Shown here one piece after another: positions 4,389 to 11,814 of a DNA stretch of 20,719 nucleotides. The translations under genes were made by a program, and so were the position numbers. A model generated the notes under the pieces. That model saw nothing but the letters and a program-made list of their open reading frames with translations, did no database searches and was not told the DNA's origin. Source of the DNA: a virus; the IMG/VR virus record IMGVR_UViG_3300028553_002420, positions 1 to 20,719 of that record, one strand, 5' to 3'. Every line of letters begins with the position of its first letter. The first letter of the stretch is position 1.

Positions 4389-4415
4389 TTGATTAATGAA
4401 GTTTATTACTATAAT
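4389..4415 (+). promoter_or_regulatory. Sigma70-type early promoter of folE
   Basis: TTGATT (4389-4394) and TATAAT (4410-4415) are 15 bases apart. Seven bases follow before the ATG at 4423. The -35 to start distance (28 bases) equals that of the other early genes. The promoter lies over and upstream of the ATG at 4396, which therefore is unlikely to be the start codon. Confidence 0.65.
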
Positions 4416-4422
4416 AACTTAT

Positions 4423-5076
4423 ATGTCTAATAAGAACAAGTTTGCTTTTGCTAATCATAACTACCCACATACCAAAGAAGAGACAGCGCAAATCATAGAA
4501 AACGCTGCTAAAGCTTATGAAGCCTATATGGATGCTTTAGGATACGATTGGAGAAATGATCCTAATAGTTCTAATACACCGCATAGAGTTGCGAAAGCGT
4601 TTGTTGAAGATTTTGCTTGGGGATGTTATAGTAATCCCCCCAAAGTAACTGCGTTCGATAATGTTGACCATTATGATGGTATGGTATGTCAGAATAATAT
4701 TAAGCTAACGTCGTTGTGTTCACATCATCATGCACCGTTTACCGGTCATGCCCATGTTGCTTACATACCTTCAACGGGTGGTAAGGTTATTGGACTAAGC
4801 AAGTTGAATAGAATTGTAGATTGGTTTGCCCGCAGACCACAAGTACAAGAAAACCTCACAATGCAAATTCATGCCTATATTGATAAGGTTTGTGAAAAGA
4901 ATAATGGTGTTGCAGTTATGATTGAGGCAGCTCATACATGTTGTTCGAACAGAGGCATTAGACATGATTCAACTATGCGTACTGCTAGAATGTCTGGTGC
5001 ATTTCTAGATAATGATGATAATTCGCGAGCAGAGTTTTATAAGTTTGTAGAGTTCTCTCAATCTAATCGAACTTAA
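4423..5076 (+). CDS. folE: GTP cyclohydrolase I (FolE type)
   Basis: FolE hydrolyses GTP to dihydroneopterin triphosphate, the entry step to folate and to the 7-deazaguanine route via QueD. The zinc ligands are recognisable: Cys and His in LCSHHHAPFTGHAHVAYIP, and the second Cys in HTCCSNRGIRHDS. The substrate-loop motif GKVIGLSKLNRIVDWFARRPQVQE is canonical. TPHRVAKAF matches the N-terminal helical part. The frame is open from ATG 4396, but I choose ATG 4423 (MSNKNKF, 217 aa). The -10 box lies at 4410-4415, and only this start fits the promoter-to-start distance of neighbouring early genes. It ends tail to tail with the protease gene, the two stops sharing TTAA. Enzyme identity is secure. 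Confidence 0.93.
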   Translation: MSNKNKFAFANHNYPHTKEETAQIIENAAKAYEAYMDALGYDWRNDPNSSNTPHRVAKAFVEDFAWGCYSNPPKVTAFDNVDHYDGMVCQNNIKLTSLCSHHHAPFTGHAHVAYIPSTGGKVIGLSKLNRIVDWFARRPQVQENLTMQIHAYIDKVCEKNNGVAVMIEAAHTCCSNRGIRHDSTMRTARMSGAFLDNDDNSRAEFYKFVEFSQSNRT

Positions 5077-5489
5077 GAGGTAAGGTTATTGTTAATATTG
5101 ACGTTAACAACGCCACCATTTTGCTTAATAAAATCCTTACAAAGTAAAACAGGATTATCTTGGTTACTTCTATCAGCAAGACTGAAGGGAGTTTTATTGA
5201 ATTGCTCTTTACCAATACTGCAGTCTAGTTCAACAACAACTCTATCGTTAACATTATTATTACCTGAAACTGTGATGCTATCCTTGATGGGAAGTTCTAA
5301 TACTTTATCACCAATAGTTTTAAACTTTACATGACCAGGCTTGGCATCTTTTAATACTATTGCATGTAGAACGTTATACCCGCTATTGCCTGTGTCTACA
5401 GTAGCTCGTACATTTCCAACATGTTGAATAGTAATACCTTCTGTCGATCCCAGTATTTGTTCATAAAAAAATTCTTTAAAACTACGCAT
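5073..5489 (-). CDS. Retropepsin-like aspartyl protease (PF05618/RimB-type) with capsid-tag-like N-terminus
   Basis: The 138-residue protein matches the pattern of RimK-associated retropepsin-like proteases (older name ATP-dependent zinc protease, PF05618), judged from memory. The catalytic-type motif is VDTGNSGYNVLHA (31-43), where family members have VDTGAxTSALHA. The distal motif FSLADRSNQDNPVLL (102-116) stands for the usual LxDRSxxxYPVLLG. Here the Gly is Cys (LLCKDF). A single lobe of this size would act as a dimer. The N-terminus MRSFKEFFYEQ fits the tag shared with other late proteins in this region. A late-type box precedes it. Possible roles are virion maturation or cleavage of a host target after injection; both are inference. 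Confidence 0.72.
   Translation of the reverse strand: MRSFKEFFYEQILGSTEGITIQHVGNVRATVDTGNSGYNVLHAIVLKDAKPGHVKFKTIGDKVLELPIKDSITVSGNNNVNDRVVVELDCSIGKEQFNKTPFSLADRSNQDNPVLLCKDFIKQNGGVVNVNINNNLTS
5089..5110. repeat. Short inverted repeat near the folE/protease convergent ends
   Basis: TTGTTAA and TTAACAA form 7-base arms around an 8-base loop. It lies just inside the 3' end of the protease gene, after the folE stop. No U-run follows on either strand, so a terminator role is doubtful, and the Asn/Val repeat in the protein may explain it. Confidence 0.25.
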
Positions 5490-5495
5490 ATTAAG

Positions 5496-5503
5496 TATTT
5501 AGT
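5496..5503 (-). promoter_or_regulatory. Late-type promoter box of the protease gene
   Basis: The minus strand reads ACTAAATA with six bases (CTTAAT) before the ATG at 5489. The GIY-YIG gene has a nearly identical arrangement (TAAATA-CTTCTA-ATG). Confidence 0.45.
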
Positions 5504-5505
5504 AG

Positions 5506-5513
5506 TATAAATA
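5506..5513 (+). promoter_or_regulatory. Perfect T4 late promoter box TATAAATA
   Basis: An exact TATAAATA is followed by six bases (TATAAA) and the ATG at 5520. This is the reference example for the looser late boxes in the window. It abuts the box for the divergent protease gene. Confidence 0.7.
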
Positions 5514-5519
5514 TATAAA

Positions 5520-6068
5520 ATGAGTAAGAAAAACGAGCTTATTAAAATTTCTGAAGCTTATAACGAAGTTGTTGTAAATGAATTAAACCTTGGACCTGGG
5601 CCAGAATCTACAGCAATGGCTCCATCGAACAATACACCAACAGTCTTAAAGATAAGTGACAATAAAGCTTGTGAGGACTGCGAAGACGGCTGGGATGAAA
5701 AAACACCTACCGCAGGCACAGGAGAGACAGATGCAGATATGGCAAAGAACGAGCTTTATAAGATGCATAACGCCTCAAAGCAATTATACAATTTAATTAA
5801 AGATGGTGAGGATCTCGAACCCTGGGTTTTTAGTAAAATTACAGTAGCAGCAAGTTATATTGAAGGTGTAAGAAATTACTTAGAATATAATAAGTTTAAG
5901 AAACAAGGTGAATTTGCACCCGATAACGACGCACATGAATTTAAGATTGTTTCAAGAATCAGAGATATGCTACACGGCGAGAATAAAGAAGTTCTTGAGA
6001 CAGTATTGCGTCAAACAATTTTTAATCTTGAAGCTATCAAGACAATCGAAGAAAATAAAGAAAAATAA
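5520..6068 (+). CDS. Late virion-type protein with conserved 'WV-KI-A-YI' helical module
   Basis: The 182-residue protein begins MSKKNELIKISEAYNEV, whose ISE/A could be a prohead-protease site. A Pro/Thr/Asn-rich linker with CEDCEDGWDE (around 50-60) follows. The second half is a helical module beginning about residue 73 (MAKNELYKMHNASKQLYNLI) and continuing with EPWVFSKITVAASYIEGVRNYLEY. From memory, closely similar modules (AWVQxKIxxAxDYIxxVxxYL) recur in proteins of marine T4-like phages, often at C-termini; the function is not known to me. It has a perfect late promoter box at 5506. It is convergent with the ligase-like gene, separated by one base. A virion-associated or internal protein is likely. 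Confidence 0.75.
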   Translation: MSKKNELIKISEAYNEVVVNELNLGPGPESTAMAPSNNTPTVLKISDNKACEDCEDGWDEKTPTAGTGETDADMAKNELYKMHNASKQLYNLIKDGEDLEPWVFSKITVAASYIEGVRNYLEYNKFKKQGEFAPDNDAHEFKIVSRIRDMLHGENKEVLETVLRQTIFNLEAIKTIEENKEK

Positions 6069-6069
6069 A

Positions 6070-7425
6070 TTAAAATCTGCCACCCATTAGGCGGTTCATT
6101 CTAGTAAAGTCTACCCGATCTACTATCTTAACCTGATTATTACCAACAAATAAAACATACCCTTCATCTTTAGCTTTTGCATAAGAACCATCAGGTAGCT
6201 GATAGAAGGCATTGGATGTTAATCTGGTGTCCAGCTGGGAAAGTATTTGCAGTATAAAAAACTTTACACGAACCATTTCGTATGTAGCGTGTATTAAACT
6301 TTCAAAACTCTTACGATGCATATCAAGAAAGTCCATTATACTAGAAATTTTTTGTTCTCTTGCTGCTCTGCCTTTCTCGCCTAATTCTTCAATACCTTTA
6401 CTAATACGCTCATTAACGAATGCCTTAAACCCCTCATAGAACTGCGCTGTATCAAACTTGGCACCCGTCTTCGCGGCGCCAAAAATTCCACTATCTTCTA
6501 AATCTACCTGTTTATTTAAATAAATTTTTAACAGCGGTAATATCTGTCCGCCCATCGATCCTTTTGCAGACGAAACATATTCTTGATCAAACTTATTATC
6601 AATGCTATTAACATGCTTGGTGGCTGCAGCAATTGTTTTTTCTATATCATGCACCATCTTGTCTGACATATCAAAAGCCACCTCACCGTAGTTACTACCT
6701 CTTATAAAAGCTTTAGTACCCTGGCTGCTACTAATTAGTGACGATATGTTCTTTCCAGCTGGTTTTAATTTAATACTCTTACCATTGTCACTGATAACCC
6801 CCGTGAACGAGTCATGAACTATAATACCAACATTGCTGCTATTAATACTAGCAAACAACGGCGATTTATCGTCAATAGGTACAGTATACATAATTGTATT
6901 TGGTTTAAACGCAATATATTCTTCATTCTCTATTCTAACTCTGCTTTTATCTGCAGACGATGTAAAGAGAACGTCAGCTTGATAGATCTTACCACTATTA
7001 TCATAAGCTGGTTTAAGATTTAAAAGCAAGCTCTTCAGCTTAGTTGCAAGCTCTTGCTTACCACTAAAGTTTTGATCTATTTCTTGCTCACTATGCAACA
7101 GCTTGGCATTTTCTTTAAGTGTATCAGTACTTTCATCTATTACATACTTTAAAGCTACAAAAAATTGTTTATTAGCTTCTGGACGAGGATCGGCACCAAA
7201 CAAAATTGACGGGGCACCATCAATTTTTGCGTTAATCTCTTGCTCGGATTCAAATCCTTTTAATTTGTTTATTATGTTAGTAGCTTGTATAAGAAAACTA
7301 TTAAATCCATTTTTCCCACCTTCTATAGCTAAATCTTCTAAGTGTGAAAGATGTGGCGAAAAGTAAGTATCTTTTTCGAGAAGAATTTCGTTTTCGGATA
7401 ATATGTAAGTCTTAAACCTAATCAT
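6070..7425 (-). CDS. Ligase-like (KxDG) covalent nucleotidyltransferase candidate, with capsid-tag-like N-terminus
   Basis: The 451-residue protein carries EQEINAKIDGAPSILFG around residues 61-77. K67-x-D69-G70 fits motif I (KxDG) of DNA/RNA ligases and capping enzymes, where the Lys is adenylated or guanylated. Plausible later motifs are YQADVLF (148-154, motif III), VGIIVHD (199-205, IV) and SIKLKP (217-222, V), in the correct order. A phage family of unknown function (DUF6267, from memory) has a similar KWDGxPA core. The C-terminal 200 residues are helical. The N-terminus MIRFKTYILSEN fits the shared late-protein tag. Its start overlaps the nucleotidyltransferase stop as ATGA, so the two are co-translated. 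Motif assignment beyond KxDG is tentative. Confidence 0.65.
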   Translation of the reverse strand: MIRFKTYILSENEILLEKDTYFSPHLSHLEDLAIEGGKNGFNSFLIQATNIINKLKGFESEQEINAKIDGAPSILFGADPRPEANKQFFVALKYVIDESTDTLKENAKLLHSEQEIDQNFSGKQELATKLKSLLLNLKPAYDNSGKIYQADVLFTSSADKSRVRIENEEYIAFKPNTIMYTVPIDDKSPLFASINSSNVGIIVHDSFTGVISDNGKSIKLKPAGKNISSLISSSQGTKAFIRGSNYGEVAFDMSDKMVHDIEKTIAAATKHVNSIDNKFDQEYVSSAKGSMGGQILPLLKIYLNKQVDLEDSGIFGAAKTGAKFDTAQFYEGFKAFVNERISKGIEELGEKGRAAREQKISSIMDFLDMHRKSFESLIHATYEMVRVKFFILQILSQLDTRLTSNAFYQLPDGSYAKAKDEGYVLFVGNNQVKIVDRVDFTRMNRLMGGRF

Positions 7426-8048
7426 TTTACTAGCTTTCTATAAATTTCTTGCTTACCTTGAATTGCAATATCTGGTAAGAAAGTAAAGAATTTTGCTTCT
7501 TCCTTATTTTTTAGGGCCTCTCTTGCCTGTGTAGCTGAAGCTAGTCTAGAAATATTACCGTGACCGATCTTGGAAACATTTTTACCTACATAAATTTGTT
7601 TATTAGGACCGGTAAAGGCATTAAAGCGTACTAAGTCCTCTTGACTTGCATATAGGTTTATAGTGTAGGGTGCAGGTGACCCTTGTAACATTTTTGCAAT
7701 TTTATCAGCATCAGGCAATGGGTTAGTGACTTTTGGCGTTGGTGAGAATTGACCATTATTCAATATATCAACAATCTGATAGATTGCAGTCACAGGAGAC
7801 CCAGTAATAGTATGTATATAAACATTTTTTGGAAGATATTCTTTGTACATATTCCAAATCTCATATGAATCTGCTGTTGTAATACCATCTCGATCTGAAC
7901 CTGAAATCAACACAACTGCTATGTCGTTATCAGTAGCCGCTTGTTTAGCAGTATCAAAATGCCCTTTGTGTGGTGGCTTAAAAGCTCCTGGGAAAAAACC
8001 TATTGATGTACCAGTTACTTCAATTAAGAATTGTTTAAACGGTAGCAT
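7422..8048 (-). CDS. HIGH-superfamily nucleotidyltransferase with capsid-tag-like N-terminus
   Basis: The 208-residue protein has the cytidylyl/adenylyltransferase signature GAFKPPHKGHF (residues 21-31, matching GxFxPxHxGH). It also has the C-terminal SATQAR (171-176), which matches the ISSTxxR phosphate-binding loop. Such enzymes join a nucleotide to a phosphorylated small molecule, as in NMN adenylyltransferase or FMN adenylyltransferase; the acceptor here cannot be told. The catalytic domain starts unusually late, at about residue 15. The preceding MLPFKQFLIEV is a clean example of the shared N-terminal tag, with LIE/V as a prohead-protease-like site. It overlaps the upstream PD-(D/E)XK gene by 14 bases and the downstream ligase-like gene by ATGA. 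Confidence 0.8.
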   Translation of the reverse strand: MLPFKQFLIEVTGTSIGFFPGAFKPPHKGHFDTAKQAATDNDIAVVLISGSDRDGITTADSYEIWNMYKEYLPKNVYIHTITGSPVTAIYQIVDILNNGQFSPTPKVTNPLPDADKIAKMLQGSPAPYTINLYASQEDLVRFNAFTGPNKQIYVGKNVSKIGHGNISRLASATQAREALKNKEEAKFFTFLPDIAIQGKQEIYRKLVK

Positions 8049-9279
8049 CAGGCGTCCCTTGTACAGGTTGAGGTTGTGAAACTTGTGCTACAGCAGGGAT
8101 AGGGGCAGGCACTACTGTAGAAGAAGCAGGCGTTCCTGGTATTTTTCCTTGTTTTGGTTTGGCGGCTTTTGCTATTCCATCAGATGACTTGCTCTTACCT
8201 ATTAATACCTTTGCACCACCATTAGCAGGCAATACATAAAATCTATTTTTCATCTTATTTAAAATTTCTGAAATTGATTCATTATCTGTTATTTGTGCAG
8301 GAACACAATTTAAATAGGATGTTCTTTTATCTACAACAAGAAACCAGTTTAGTCTATTTTTATTACAATATATTTTTAAAATTATTGCACCGGCTATATT
8401 TCTACCTTCCTCAAACGACAAACTAGTCCTGTCACCTATAATGCTATTGACTTCTGACTCAAAAGGCTTAAACGCATCTTCTGCATATTTGTAATCTCCA
8501 AATGCTAAGTACTTTATCTTGTTCAATAGTGTATCAGGAGCAGTTACAAAATATTCTTTCGGCCTCTTATAATACACTCCACTCTCCTTTATTCCTAATC
8601 TACCGTCCAAGGCTTTAAGCTCTAACTTAACCCCGCCTATCATTATATCGCCCTTTGAGGTTTCCTCGCTAGATGAAGCTTCATCTCTAGAGGAAAGTTT
8701 TTTTCCATTAGCAAAAAAAGCTATAAAAACTTCCCCGGGACCTGCATTTTTACTCTGATCCTTTCTGGGCGCCTTATCTGTTGCTAGTAAATCATATAAT
8801 TCAGTAATCTCGGGATAGCTAGCAATACTTTGTGCTGTGATATTCTGACCGTTAGCATTTAAGGCTTCAGCTAATACGGTTATAAATGAAATAAATGGTT
8901 GGTTTAATCTACTTAAAAAAAGTCTTTCACACTCTTTGAAGATTTCTTCTGTTAATGTAATATTAAGTGTTTGTAAGAAGTCTACTAATAAATTGTAGTT
9001 TCTATTGGTGTAACAACCAGTATTCATTAGTCTTTCTTTTACTATTTTTGCTAATTGATAATTACCACCCCTTGTTATTGCTGGAGAAATAACATCATCA
9101 TAATATTCTTTATCTACTTCACCTTCCAGCGTAGCGGGATCATCTGCTTCCTGTTTATAGACTTTTATAGCCTCATCTTCTTCTTTTATAAACAAGCGTA
9201 CGCTTTGTCTAGGTAATGGCGGGACCGGTTTACCCACAACATTCTCGGAGTATACTTCTTTTAAACTCTTATACGACAC
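8035..9279 (-). CDS. PD-(D/E)XK nuclease-like protein, 414 aa
   Basis: The start is GTG (9279). In the middle lies GDIMIGGVKLELKALDGRLG (210-229). D211 followed after eight residues by E220-x-K222 fits the D-(x)n-ExK core of PD-(D/E)XK nucleases. An upstream GPGEVFIAFF (180-189) could give the helix-borne Glu. Residues 70-165 are helical. From about 365 to the end the protein is a Pro/Ala/Val/Gln-rich tail, typical of a flexible terminus. The N-terminus SYKSLKEVYSEN fits the shared tag loosely (YSE/N). A late-type box AATAAATA ends four bases before the GTG. It overlaps the nucleotidyltransferase gene. The fold call rests on one motif; it could also be an inactive relative or a structural protein. 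Confidence 0.6.
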   Translation of the reverse strand: MSYKSLKEVYSENVVGKPVPPLPRQSVRLFIKEEDEAIKVYKQEADDPATLEGEVDKEYYDDVISPAITRGGNYQLAKIVKERLMNTGCYTNRNYNLLVDFLQTLNITLTEEIFKECERLFLSRLNQPFISFITVLAEALNANGQNITAQSIASYPEITELYDLLATDKAPRKDQSKNAGPGEVFIAFFANGKKLSSRDEASSSEETSKGDIMIGGVKLELKALDGRLGIKESGVYYKRPKEYFVTAPDTLLNKIKYLAFGDYKYAEDAFKPFESEVNSIIGDRTSLSFEEGRNIAGAIILKIYCNKNRLNWFLVVDKRTSYLNCVPAQITDNESISEILNKMKNRFYVLPANGGAKVLIGKSKSSDGIAKAAKPKQGKIPGTPASSTVVPAPIPAVAQVSQPQPVQGTPDATV

Positions 9280-9283
9280 AGAT

Positions 9284-9291
9284 TATTTATT
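9284..9291 (-). promoter_or_regulatory. Late-type promoter box of the PD-(D/E)XK-like gene
   Basis: The minus strand reads AATAAATA, four bases (ATCT) before the GTG start. It lies in the 18-base gap after the stop of the 176-aa gene. Confidence 0.45.
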
Positions 9292-9297
9292 AAAGCT

Positions 9298-9828
9298 TTA
9301 TAGCGTTTTATGTTTATCTTCTTCTGCATTCTCCTCTTTACCAGCAGCTTTCTTTGCAGCATGCCTGGCAGCAGCTTCTGGATTCTGCATTTTCCATTTG
9401 GCCCATCTCTTTTTGTTTATATCCCATCCCCTTTGCACTCGTTCTTTTCTTTCATCTGAACTCTCTGCATTCTCTGCATAAGGACCAGGATCATTGGGGT
9501 GCTGGGCTCTGTAGGATCTTATCATGCCTATCAACTGCCTGCCCCGGTGTCTCTCTTCTTCTGTTGCAGGGGTGCCTCTGTCTGAAATTTCTTTTGTTTT
9601 GTCATGCAGTTCTTGTCTGATCTTGATAAACTCTTCTTTGCTTGGAATACCGTATCTCACAATGTCCATGATGTTACCAGCCAATTCACCTCTGCGCTTG
9701 GTAATACCGTCCACTGGTTGTTCTGCATCTTCTGAATTATTATCTCTTGCATCTACTGGTTTGTCCACACCTGTGGCACTTTGTTTGTTAATAAATGCTT
9801 CAAATATTAAATGATTGTCCCTATTCAT
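9298..9828 (-). CDS. Charged hypothetical protein, 176 aa
   Basis: The product begins MNRDNHLIFEAFINKQ; the LIFE/A step resembles a T4 prohead-protease site. The rest is strongly charged and probably helical: an acidic N-terminal linker, then many Arg/Lys/Glu residues. WAKWKMQNPEAAARHAAKKAAGKEE near the C-terminus is a basic alanine-rich helix of the kind seen in DNA-binding internal proteins. No catalytic motif or membrane segment is visible. It follows the 117-aa gene on the same strand with a 4-base gap and no clear ribosome binding site. A capsid-internal or core protein is a reasonable but unproven guess. Confidence 0.7.
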   Translation of the reverse strand: MNRDNHLIFEAFINKQSATGVDKPVDARDNNSEDAEQPVDGITKRRGELAGNIMDIVRYGIPSKEEFIKIRQELHDKTKEISDRGTPATEEERHRGRQLIGMIRSYRAQHPNDPGPYAENAESSDERKERVQRGWDINKKRWAKWKMQNPEAAARHAAKKAAGKEENAEEDKHKTL

Positions 9829-9832
9829 ATTA

Positions 9833-10186
9833 TTATGTATTGGTCTGTGTATTTACATCTAAATTAACAGCATCCATCTGCATCAACTTAATAATTTTGT
9901 TAAGCACATCAGATGCATTTTTTTCATCAGTATCGGGTAAATCCTTTAGGACCTTAAGCTCTATATCATCAGGGTTCATGAATAGTGCCTTCCTAAGTAG
10001 ATTAATTAAAAAGACTTCACCCTCAGGAGTTAGAGGTTTTTGTTGCTGCGGCTCTACTTGAGGCTCGGGGACTGCTTGTGGAGCAGCAACAGGCGCTTCA
10101 GCCGCAGGTACATTAATTTCAGGCTGTACAGGTGTTTGCTCGAGCAAATTACCGAATTTTGCTGCAATTAGATCGTTAAATCTCAT
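9833..10186 (-). CDS. Hypothetical late protein with Pro/Gln/Ala linker, 117 aa
   Basis: The first 17 residues, MRFNDLIAAKFGNLLEQ, form an amphipathic helix ending in L-L-E/Q. A low-complexity stretch rich in Pro, Val, Ala, Glu and Gln (about 18-52) follows. A compact acidic helical part then begins TPEGEVFLINLLRKALFMNPDD. The gene overlaps the end of the 120-aa gene as ATGA (10183-10186), implying coupled translation. Tag, linker and small folded unit resemble the neighbouring proteins. Function unknown. Confidence 0.7.
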   Translation of the reverse strand: MRFNDLIAAKFGNLLEQTPVQPEINVPAAEAPVAAPQAVPEPQVEPQQQKPLTPEGEVFLINLLRKALFMNPDDIELKVLKDLPDTDEKNASDVLNKIIKLMQMDAVNLDVNTQTNT

Positions 10187-10545
10187 GGAACTGTTGTTGG
10201 TGTAGTAGCAGTTGGTGTAGTAGCAGGAATCTGTGTTGATGCTTGTCTTAATTTGCCAGTAGCTTCTTCAGCTTTCTTCTTCAGCGCATCAGCAACTTGC
10301 TTGTAAATTGTATCTAGTTCTAGCTTTTTCTTAGCAAGTTCAGGGTCTTGTTGTACCTTGAGAGTATCATCAATAACTTTTCCAAGATTGGGTGCTTGAC
10401 TAGCAGATGAAGTTGAAGGGGTAGATGGAGTTGAAGATGTAGAGGGGGTCACGCCAGGTATACTTGATACATACTCCATAACCCATTGTGGCGGATCAAT
10501 TTCTAATTTCTTGTACTTTTCAATAATTTGTAATAAAAACTTCAT
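10183..10545 (-). CDS. Hypothetical late protein with Ser/Thr/Pro repeats, 120 aa
   Basis: The protein starts MKFLLQIIEKYKKLEIDPP, a short helix containing I-I-E. A tract of repeated Thr-Pro-Ser units (about 33-48) follows. A charged coiled-coil-like helix, LAKKKLELDTIYKQVADALKKKAEEATGKL, comes next. The tail has alternating Thr/Pro/Ala, encoded partly by a 15-base tandem repeat. Composition and layout suggest a flexible virion or scaffold-type protein rather than an enzyme. A late-type box CATAAATA ends seven bases upstream. It overlaps the next gene by ATGA. Confidence 0.7.
   Translation of the reverse strand: MKFLLQIIEKYKKLEIDPPQWVMEYVSSIPGVTPSTSSTPSTPSTSSASQAPNLGKVIDDTLKVQQDPELAKKKLELDTIYKQVADALKKKAEEATGKLRQASTQIPATTPTATTPTTVP
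10196..10225. repeat. Two perfect tandem copies of a 15-base unit
   Basis: GTTGGTGTAGTAGCA occurs twice in direct succession (10196-10210 and 10211-10225). It encodes the Thr/Pro/Ala repeat at the C-terminus of the 120-aa protein. The 15-base length keeps the frame. Confidence 0.8.
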
Positions 10546-10552
10546 TATAAGA

Positions 10553-10560
10553 TATTTATG
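10553..10560 (-). promoter_or_regulatory. Late-type promoter box of the 120-aa gene
   Basis: The minus strand reads CATAAATA, with seven bases before the ATG at 10545. It overlaps the last codons of the upstream early gene. Confidence 0.5.
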
Positions 10561-11095
10561 TTAAGAACAACCCTAATTTTACCTTGAAATTACTATTCAA
10601 TTCACCTTGAATTTTTTGAATTCCGTTTTTTAATAAAAACTTATCTAATTTTACAAGATCAGGTCGCTTGAGATGACGTGCATATACAAAATTAACTCTA
10701 GCTCTAGTCTCTCGTCCTTCTCCAGTTGCTGCTGTTAATAGGTCTGCAAATTCAATAAACCCCATATCATCTGCATATATACTTAGCGATAAAATTGCAG
10801 ACAGTTTACGGAATAAATTAATTACAAACAGCCGATTGTCACCTATATGCTCTGCTTGTAGTTCCTTAGGAAGGAACAGCAAGAGTTTCTTACCACAACT
10901 AACATTATTACCTAATGTATCTAAAATAAAACTTACAACCCTATAGACTATAAACCTTCTCAGCAATCGGTTATTTTTTTCTAGATTATATTTAAATACA
11001 TCCTCTGTTACGTGTGGCTCAATTTCCTCAGTAAACGCTCGCTGAATATCAATTAATTTGTAATCAAGAGATTTTATGTCTTTAATATAACCCAC
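10556..11095 (-). CDS. Hypothetical early protein, 179 aa
   Basis: I do not recognise the family. The protein is soluble, mixed and mostly helical, with no catalytic signature that I can name. Features include FVINLFRKLSAILSLSIYADDMGF in the middle and a basic C-terminal part, FLLKNGIQKIQGELNSNFKVKLGLF. The frame is open from ATG 11101, but TATAAT lies directly against that ATG, which would then not be transcribed. The third codon is GTG (11095), exactly six bases from TATAAT as in the other early genes. I therefore take GTG as the start (first residues MGYIKDIKSLDYKL). It is an early gene set among late genes, which suggests a role in host takeover or replication rather than in the virion. 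Confidence 0.7.
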   Translation of the reverse strand: MGYIKDIKSLDYKLIDIQRAFTEEIEPHVTEDVFKYNLEKNNRLLRRFIVYRVVSFILDTLGNNVSCGKKLLLFLPKELQAEHIGDNRLFVINLFRKLSAILSLSIYADDMGFIEFADLLTAATGEGRETRARVNFVYARHLKRPDLVKLDKFLLKNGIQKIQGELNSNFKVKLGLFLT

Positions 11096-11101
11096 GCCCA
11101 T

Positions 11102-11129
11102 ATTATAGATGAACTTATATAGCAGTCAA
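11102..11129 (-). promoter_or_regulatory. Sigma70-type early promoter of the 179-aa gene
   Basis: On the minus strand TTGACT (11129-11124) and TATAAT (11107-11102) have a 16-base spacer, close to the ideal sigma70 promoter. Six bases after the -10 lies GTG (11095). It starts right after the stop of the GIY-YIG gene. Confidence 0.75.
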
Positions 11130-11543
11130 TTAAATTTTAAAATCTTTTGGCGGGGTACCAATTCGGACATTAAGAATGCCATTATAATATTCTTGACTAA
11201 GAATTACATCGCGATGTATTTGTTCTTTAATTTCTCTATAGCCTAATTCCCATTTAGATCCGCAAAAGTGTAATATAGTAAAACGGAATTTATCTTTTCC
11301 ATATTTCTCTATATCTGCATTTAATTCATTTGAAGAGCCTGTATACACCTTCCAATCAGATTCTCTTAACTCTATTCTTTTATTTTTGCGTCCCTTGAGA
11401 GGTTTTCTTTTAAGTTTTGAAATGCATTGTTTTTTGCCAATATATTTTTTATTAGTTACTGTATTACAGATTTCATATATGAACCCAAATGCTCCTTCTT
11501 GAGGTGTAACACCTGGAGCTAATTCCCAGTGGCCAAAATTCAT
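11130..11543 (-). CDS. GIY-YIG family nuclease
   Basis: The 137-residue protein has GFIYEI (residues 20-25) for the GIY element and KKYIGKKQ (33-40) for YIG. A basic segment KLKRKPLKGRKNKR follows. The Glu of YREIKEQI is a candidate metal ligand, and YNGILNV near the C-terminus fits the family's terminal Asn. This is nearly the bare catalytic domain, without an obvious DNA-recognition domain. It may be a free-standing homing endonuclease of the Seg type or a phage repair/degradation nuclease. It overlaps the stop of the upstream 76-aa gene by one base (TAATG). A late-type box TTTAAATA lies inside the end of that gene, six bases from the ATG. Confidence 0.8.
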   Translation of the reverse strand: MNFGHWELAPGVTPQEGAFGFIYEICNTVTNKKYIGKKQCISKLKRKPLKGRKNKRIELRESDWKVYTGSSNELNADIEKYGKDKFRFTILHFCGSKWELGYREIKEQIHRDVILSQEYYNGILNVRIGTPPKDFKI

Positions 11544-11773
11544 TAGAAGTATTTAAACAAGCTTCTTCGTTGTACAAGAGGCACACGCCGTTTTTTGCCT
11601 TTTTTGCCGACTAACGTTGCTCCTAAGAATTTGGGTGTTCGCATATCATCTGGTGCATAAAAATCAGAATTTCCTACTGCTCCGCCATGTCCCATGCTAG
11701 GTGCGTCGCCGAAGACCCCGCCTGCACCGGCAGTATTATCCTCTTGCATAACATATTCTTTAAACGTTTTCAT
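11543..11773 (-). CDS. Small Gly-rich late protein with capsid-tag-like N-terminus, 76 aa
   Basis: The N-terminus MKTFKEYVMQEDN is the closest in the window to the T4 internal-protein targeting peptide (MKTYQEFIAE, from memory). The middle is Gly/Ala-rich with FGDAPSMGHGGAVGN and NSDFYAPDD, and the C-terminal third is strongly basic (GKKGKKRRVPLVQRRSLFKYF), suiting DNA contact inside a capsid. The function is not recognised. The late box CATAAATA on this strand lies 33 bases before the ATG, further than for other late genes, with no obvious ribosome binding site. The gene faces away from uvsY. Confidence 0.75.
   Translation of the reverse strand: MKTFKEYVMQEDNTAGAGGVFGDAPSMGHGGAVGNSDFYAPDDMRTPKFLGATLVGKKGKKRRVPLVQRRSLFKYF
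11550..11557 (-). promoter_or_regulatory. Late-type promoter box of the GIY-YIG gene
   Basis: The minus strand reads TTTAAATA with six bases (CTTCTA) before the ATG at 11543. It is embedded in the last codons of the 76-aa gene. Confidence 0.35.
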
Positions 11774-11806: not shown

Positions 11807-11814
11807 TATTTATG
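11807..11814 (-). promoter_or_regulatory. Late-type box overlapping the uvsY start codon
   Basis: The minus strand reads CATAAATA; its first three bases are the complement of the uvsY ATG. It would drive the 76-aa gene leftward with a short leader. Use of this late promoter could interfere with the early promoter next to it. Confidence 0.4.

Follow-up and report, generated by a model that had tools for sequence, protein, structure and literature searches.

The closest described counterpart of the system considered here is the capsid-targeting sequence (CTS) of phage T4, a 10-residue N-terminal peptide with hydrophobic residues at positions 4, 7 and 8 and glutamate at position 10, carried by the unrelated internal proteins IPI, IPII and IPIII; in IPIII residues 4 and 7 serve targeting and residues 8 and 10 processing, and the gp21 protease cuts after L/I-x-E (PMC9026906). 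Internal proteins of T-even phages are diverse, with the CTS alone conserved (PMC3012670), and CTSs may be a general packaging route of T4-like phages (PMC9026906), so these two papers already anticipate the idea of a widespread tag. In phage P1 an N-terminal peptide of DarB is sufficient to bring a reporter into the head (PMC9024508), and in the giant phages phiKZ, 201phi2-1 and SPN3US a prohead protease cuts many head-internal proteins after glutamate (PMC9026906). Here we analyse a stretch of 20,719 bases (the window), which is the whole IMG/VR virus record IMGVR_UViG_3300028553_002420 and, judging by its content, a fragment. An earlier note had pointed to four of its proteins that begin with nearly the same short peptide, likened to the T4 tag. 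All the N-termini it quoted were found at their positions, and the T4 peptide it named, MKTYQEFIAE, reads so in ipII and ipIII, with MKTFKEF in ipI (T4 genes from NC_000866). The four proteins are the following (aa, amino acids):

5073–5489, minus strand: retropepsin-like protein (PF05618, E = 7e-6; 26.5 bits, the cut-off being 27), tag MRSFKEFFYE at 5460–5489, kept in orthologues.
6070–7425, minus strand: DUF6267 protein (PF19782, E = 3e-50), tag MIRFKTYILSE at 7393–7425.
7422–8048, minus strand: CTP_transf_like/NMNAT-like nucleotidyltransferase, tag MLPFKQFLIE at 8019–8048.
11543–11773, minus strand: 76-aa protein, tag MKTFKEYVMQE at 11741–11773, the rest being a miniature N-terminal arm of the major capsid protein (MCP) and a basic tail.

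The shared N-terminus is, with high probability, a T4-like tag that targets proteins to the capsid and is removable by the protease, its cleavage and packaging being predictions for this phage; the interpretation of the earlier note is supported, and those attempts at refutation that were run came out in its favour. Compared with the T4 CTS, the tags described here have a Phe-Lys-x-Phe/Tyr core, larger enzyme-like cargo and hydrophobic P3 residues beyond L/I; one phage has two or more tag classes, and another clade uses a leucine version of the tag. DarB belongs to another phage type and is likened by description, not by sequence, whereas the 201phi2-1 sites have few determinants besides glutamate (PMC9026906), unlike the 10-residue pattern seen here.

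As a larger copy of the window we used G001, a contig of 92,062 bases from another sample with 105 called genes, whose DUF6267 protein, nucleotidyltransferase and gp46 homologue are 100% identical to those of the window. A strict motif drawn from the T4 literature (PMC9026906), with aromatic residues at about positions 4 and 7, a hydrophobic residue at 8 and glutamate at 10–11, matches 4 of the 105 genes, and these are exactly the four best proteins of the earlier note (starts at 5489, 7425, 8048 and 11773). Four hundred shuffles of residues 2–16 in G001 gave a mean of 0.07 matches and a maximum of 2 (Poisson P = 2e-5), and inside the proteins the motif occurs at 36 of 25,770 internal positions and at 1 of 370 internal methionines. 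Early genes had been named as the place where an equally common motif would tell against the idea; the strict motif is absent from the remaining 101 genes called on G001, replication genes included. A stretch of 34 T4 genes behaves in the same way, the strict motif matching ipII and ipIII, nearly matching ipI, and fitting no other gene. Over seven related contigs it is found in 30 of 1232 genes against about 1.75 summed from shuffles; these 30 matches are not independent, since the contigs are related, and a few are due to chance. We judged some regular-expression matches to be chance or start-site artefacts (G004 53875, G021 142756, G011 88014 and gp30 of the cyanophage S-CREM2).

Across orthologues the tag drifts in its letters and keeps its pattern. 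Among non-redundant orthologues the strict motif is present in 6 of 10 retropepsin-like proteins, 8 of 14 DUF6267 proteins, 11 of 16 of the 76-aa proteins and 6 of 39 nucleotidyltransferases (many of them very distant), and in none of the ten further families listed, which include SegE and UvsY. The nucleotidyltransferase tags MLPFKQFLIE, MKTFKQFLLE, MKPFKHFLLE and MKTFRQFLIE all precede the same SIG[FV]FPGAFKPPHKGH-like start, and some orthologues of the 76-aa protein have additional residues before the tag (MIIKCKTFKQFVIE). The MNLGQYIAQQLLE start of distant nucleotidyltransferases was considered as another shared tag and rejected, being confined to that gene in the 20-kb loci scanned, bar two loose matches (L042 and L045); another MNLG start, seen in G014, does not resemble MNLGQYIAQQLLE.

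The tag is widespread in environmental viruses. A DNA pattern for MKxFK[EQ]FLxE was matched at no fewer than 120 loci of IMG/VR, and the same codons in another order at one, so it is the order of residues and not their composition that matters. Among the matches listed, 117 of 120 have an in-frame stop no more than 35 codons upstream, 12 of them also an in-frame ATG ahead of the match, and the 117 tagged proteins of at least 50 aa form 41 BLAST families when compared without the tag (single linkage, E = 1e-3). Pfam assignments for 40 of the 41 family representatives (E up to 0.01, some weak) include S-AdoMet lyase, ADP-ribosyltransferase, methyltransferases, NUDIX, lysozyme, PF05618 and GNAT, among others. 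One of these environmental proteins matches PHROG 595, a head maturation protease (E = 5e-12).

In another T4-like clade (L clade), unrelated proteins begin with MIKLIDLLLE, MIRLVDILKE or MIKLTDLLIE, which would be a clade-specific form of the tag. Five contigs of this clade show the leucine pattern in 30 of 1161 genes (shuffles about 6.1 summed) and the phenylalanine (F) pattern in 3 (about 1.4), while the seven F-type contigs show the leucine pattern in 6 (about 3.9). MIKL starts are found in 22 of 1161 L-clade genes (3 of 4246 internal methionines) versus 1 of 1232 F-type genes (Fisher P = 2e-6), and the F-type core start in 28 of 1232 F-type genes versus 0 of 1161 (Fisher P = 9e-9); the assignment to clades behind these figures is partly post hoc, the leucine form having been seen first in G019 and G024 (L060 and L068). 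Four contigs were fetched after this first look: G014, G018 and G022 have MIKL at 3 of 204, 5 of 255 and 8 of 237 genes, and G023 is of the F kind. In IMG/VR, MIKLxDLLxE matched 120 or more stretches; among the matches listed, 123 of 129 are within 35 codons of an upstream stop and the proteins form 63 BLAST families, of which 60 were scanned, giving ART-PolyVal, lysozyme and GNAT and, weakly, metallopeptidase and P-loop kinases.

Tags and bodies may also be recombined. One body follows MKSFKQYFLE in G021 (continuing as KKVAPRGVCWKGYK) and MIKLSELLSE in G022 (continuing as KAPCWKGYK), the RCTKVTGQ body carries four unlike starts, and the homologues of one L-tagged protein in isolates begin to align no earlier than residue 12, which holds for 8 of 8 records (Melnitz phages, HTVC008M and Atu_ph07, three phage groups). 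We lean, with some reserve, towards the view that head-cargo addressing is a modular code with clade dialects, in which M-x-x-F-K-x-F-L-x-E and M-I-K-L-x-D-L-L-x-E match position for position, a phage may use several tag classes at once (the F-tag plus M[ND]xDxxLIFEAY), as if separate scaffold docking sites co-evolved with them, and bodies stay while tags are exchanged. In Flavobacterium phage immuto (L220) several proteins share recurring starts such as MENFDLKKFLVENKLT, MADNFNLRSFLTENKLT and MKKSQLRQIIKE, which may be tag dialects of its own.

The earlier note had suggested looking for a gp21-type protease, and a gp21 homologue is indeed encoded by the same phage (G001, 3296–3745, E = 1.2e-37). 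This homologue (Peptidase S77; L116, 3149–3823) scores 125 bits against a Pfam cut-off of 27 and aligns with T4 gp21 (5jbl, E = 4.5e-21) across the GELNxP and SRxLGSL stretches. The protease was found in 15 of 23 related contigs, and in 15 of the 20 tag-bearing contigs of at least 70 kb that were looked up (21 were listed, the remaining one being G022, where gp21 is known). The homologue has the conserved His and Ser motifs, presumably with the catalytic residues.

An incidental clue to the cleavage site comes from the 76-aa protein. A profile of its family finds the MCPs of the same phages, with E values of 4e-9 to 4e-8 in four and 0.016 in the fifth (G021), and the tag glutamate aligns on a glutamate at about position 60 of the MCP in four of the five (IGE, INE and VNE contexts) and one residue earlier in the other. 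This MCP glutamate is likely the capsid maturation site. Since the two glutamates align and T4 gp23 loses 65 residues (PMC9026906), the tag seems to occupy the position of the propeptide. The MCP gene lies at L116:320–1792, and the window protein copies its N-terminal arm behind the tag and before the basic tail.

As for the mechanism, the short amphipathic helix of the tag would dock the protein onto the scaffold core while the head grows, after which the gp21-type protease would cut behind the tag glutamate (hydrophobic-x-E) and free the protein inside the head, and the freed protein would be injected together with the DNA. The cargo would comprise the nucleotidyltransferase, the ligase-like DUF6267 enzyme, the retropepsin-like protein and the capsid-arm mimic, probably directed at host defence or at the head itself, and the tag would come in clade-specific versions, Phe/Tyr and Leu. 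One could also imagine that the tag docks on scaffold or capsid and stays uncleaved, the proteins being structural components of the head and not injected cargo. The mimicry of the capsid arm fits this, as do some tags lacking the glutamate (MKPFKDYVGNN and MISYKDFTTTN). We find it unlikely, as many orthologues with drifted tags retain the glutamate, which coincides in the alignment with the MCP maturation site, and delivery suits the tagged S-adenosylmethionine (SAM) lyase, ADP-ribosyltransferase, NUDIX and methyltransferase families better than a structural role.

Tagged proteins are also detected in virions of cultured relatives. NMNAT-like or cytidylyltransferase proteins have been reported in cyanophage virions (PMC10665884, PMC9146016), and such NMNAT-like and other virion enzymes, described for S-CREM2, S-SZBM1, S-SCSM1, S-SM1 and S-CBWM1 (PMC10665884, PMC9602691, PMC9146016, PMC3037559), are treated there as regulatory or unexplained, with no targeting peptide mentioned in the parts of these papers covered. 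We used the published virion tables of S-CREM2 (52 proteins; Table 3 of PMC10665884) and S-SZBM1 (30 proteins; Table 1 of PMC9146016), counting with annotated starts because our gene caller misplaces some (2 S-CREM2 matches versus 5 with annotated starts). Some N-termini of both phages had been seen before counting; the strict pattern is that used for G001, unchanged. In S-CREM2 it occurs in 5 of 219 proteins, and four of these five were detected in the virion (P = 0.012): the SAM hydrolase gp6 (MKDFDSFLEE), the kinase gp14 (MKRFDAFLTEE), gp136 (MQTFSMFFSE) and the cytidylyltransferase gp154 (MKNFSSFLTE), the undetected fifth, gp30, looking like a chance match. Two further virion-detected proteins are near-fits, gp13 (MKDLHSFLTE) and gp12 (PLRFASFMAE near residue 20). 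The latter (L163:7704–10313) is annotated as Cas9/Csn1 and has its tag-like RFASFMAE near residue 20 and not at residue 1. S-SZBM1 has the strict motif in 3 of 218 proteins, with the cytidylyltransferase _140 (MRFRQFIIE) detected, and pooling the two cyanophages gives the motif in 5 of 82 detected proteins and in 3 of the 355 that were undetected (odds ratio 8; stratified P = 0.009). Independently, the best matches in S-CREM2 of environmental proteins found by the tag alone are gp6, gp137, gp160 and gp208; each of the four was detected in the virion, where the base rate is 52 of 219. Virion proteomics, named in the earlier note as a check, thus shows the motif clearly enriched in S-CREM2 and not in S-SZBM1 alone.

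Several observations weigh against a cleaved capsid-targeting tag. S-SZBM1 taken alone shows no enrichment (1 of 3, P = 0.36), its textbook tags _191 and _192 being absent from the 30 virion proteins, and of the four that environmental tagged proteins matched among 23 chosen S-SZBM1 proteins only _140 was detected. In S-CREM2, P rises from 0.012 to 0.07 when proteins under 100 aa are left out, and the S-CREM2 paper cautions that non-virion proteins of high abundance may be co-purified (PMC10665884). Five of the 20 tag-bearing contigs show no gp21, and contigs may be incomplete; HTVC008M has an annotated gp21-type protease and no strict motif. As many as 33 of the 39 non-redundant nucleotidyltransferases lack the strict motif, and P3 is leucine in only two of the four tags: LSE and LIE fit L/I-x-E, and FYE and MQE carry other hydrophobic residues, a relaxation similar to that of the MCP contexts IGE, INE, VNE and CME. 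Finally, 14 of 17 orthologues of the replication protein UvsY have an N-terminus that fits a relaxed version of the motif; as this version also matches 11 of 105 G001 genes, it was rejected as unspecific and only the strict form was counted.

The co-purification caveat and the unenriched S-SZBM1 would also suit a peptide with another purpose (translation enhancer, degron, or membrane or replication-factory address), its detection in virions being contamination. This we consider very improbable, given that a scrambled pattern gives 1 match against at least 120, shuffled N-termini rarely match, the strict motif is absent from the remaining called genes of G001, the tag co-occurs with gp21, and experiments have proven the similarly built T4 peptide to be a CTS (PMC9026906). 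Descent of the whole genes from one ancestor, as paralogues with a divergent common N-terminal domain, has the shared start in its favour and is hardly credible at all, since the bodies belong to different Pfam families, unrelated as the earlier note had stated, the environmental tagged proteins listed split into 41 and 63 BLAST families with the tag removed, and one body can carry different tags (RCTKVTGQ and CWKGYK bodies). The tag itself is genuine, recurrent and conserved, and capsid targeting with later cleavage explains it best, its cleavage, packaging and injection being predictions for this phage.

The earlier note had also listed looser N-termini ending in a hydrophobic-x-E, and a late character for the block; the features concerned are these:

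8035–9279, minus strand: 414-aa protein with GTG start, N-terminal module MxYxSLKxxYxx...PPLPRQ at 9205–9279.
9298–9828, minus strand: 176-aa protein, second tag class M[ND]xDxxLIFEA[YF] at 9793–9828.
9833–10186, minus strand: 117-aa protein, N-terminus ending hydrophobic-x-E-Q, a possible tag kept in most listed orthologues.
5520–6068, plus strand (opposite to the block): 182-aa protein, N-terminus ..[IL]xEAY, a possible tag kept in most listed orthologues.
11807–11814, minus strand: CATAAATA, T4-late-type promoter element ahead of the block.
10553–10560, minus strand: second CATAAATA, just ahead of the 10545 start, of uncertain function, also listed before this gene in G001, G004, G008, G010 and G011.

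The four best proteins share a tag, and the loose forms are not significant by themselves: [LI]xE alone is background, found within residues 2–16 in 22 of 105 G001 genes and in 14–23% of genes in eight genomes. MNRDNHLIFE (9828) is rescued as part of a second repeated tag, M[ND]xDxxLIFEA[YF], present in 10 of 1232 proteins (7 groups without BLAST similarity), at 0 of 3392 internal methionines and nowhere in the L clade. SYKSLKEVYSE (9279) belongs to a 25-residue module carried by poorly aligning bodies (20–24% identity), with M1, Y3, S5, L6, K7, Y10 and P20–Q25 invariant in the alignment, plus seven scattered later columns. The hydrophobic-x-E of FGNLLE (10186) and ELIKISE (5520) is retained in most listed orthologues, that of LLQIIE (10545) in only 4 of 14, so that we rejected the latter as a tag, and INQLLHE (260) was seen in one close relative only. 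Of the claim that most of the late block is capsid cargo, four of the ten minus-strand genes stand clearly, those at 8035, 9298 and 9833 are plausible, and those at 10183, 10556 and 11130 (SegE) are unsupported. By our reading of a few letters the 8035 protein is a candidate relative of PD-(D/E)XK nucleases; its structural model was too poor for use (predicted local distance difference test, pLDDT, 44.8; two sequences).

The block does begin with a conserved T4-late-type promoter element, in keeping with the late character proposed for it. In 19 of 20 orthologous loci ATAAATA is found no more than 70 nt ahead of the 76-aa gene, and it also precedes the sheath-like gene (MAR[TQ]IQSPGV, an identity that is our own reading) in the 6 of 6 F-type contigs having one; L031 and L032 keep it at other spacings. 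Its counts in the window are not above chance (TATAAATA 1 against 3.3 expected, CATAAATA 3 against 2.1) and it precedes 201 of 1226 genes in seven contigs within the same distance, so only placement and conservation across loci are informative, the latter being partly forced in the window because three bases of the element are the start codon of the divergent UvsY gene. A scan for sigma-70 promoters remained at chance level. Judging from this element, the block is a candidate for late expression with the head genes.

Among the cargo, the DUF6267 protein gave a model (pLDDT 80.9), in which the tag forms a helix at residues 4–10, followed by a low-confidence stretch (12–24) and then the fold. 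K67, D69 and G70 of a KxDG motif are invariant in 13 sequences, and we take this motif to be motif I of ATP-dependent ligases and covalent nucleotidyltransferases. All 50 listed VIA matches of the model are to ligases, alone or within repair complexes (best Z 8.9), the best Foldseek E value being only 0.016. PF19782 thus probably has an ATP-dependent-ligase-like nucleotidyltransferase fold.

The remaining genes of the window include PhoH, UvsY, a UvsW-like helicase, GTP cyclohydrolase I, a protein of the 6-pyruvoyl-tetrahydropterin synthase (PTPS) type and a gp46 homologue and, by our reading, gp47, gp55 and gp43. The genes flanking the tagged block at 506–1252 (4Fe-4S domain, QueE-like by our reading), 2060–2722 (PTPS/QueD-type) and 4396–5076 (GTP cyclohydrolase I) suggest 7-deazaguanine synthesis, perhaps for DNA modification.

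In a literature search that covered few subscription journals, no title or abstract start reported such a tag outside T4, P1 and the giant phages; "capsid targeting" with "cyanophage" returned a T4 review only, and with "metagenom" nothing. Within that search, the breadth, the dialects and the cargo list are found in no publication. T4-like viruses are very common in the sea (PMC3037559) and the proteins that they inject are mostly unknown, so that a label readable from sequence turns metagenomes into a testable list, in which many of the cargo proteins may be anti-defence. The literature passages name the receptor of the tag on the scaffold no further than core proteins, and the clade dialects make this receptor accessible to co-variation analysis; the tags themselves are off-the-shelf parts for packing proteins of choice into phage heads. 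If the modular code holds true, reading the tag would predict the injected proteins of uncultured viruses, among them ADP-ribosyltransferases, SAM lyases, nucleotidyltransferases, ligases, proteases and many unknowns.

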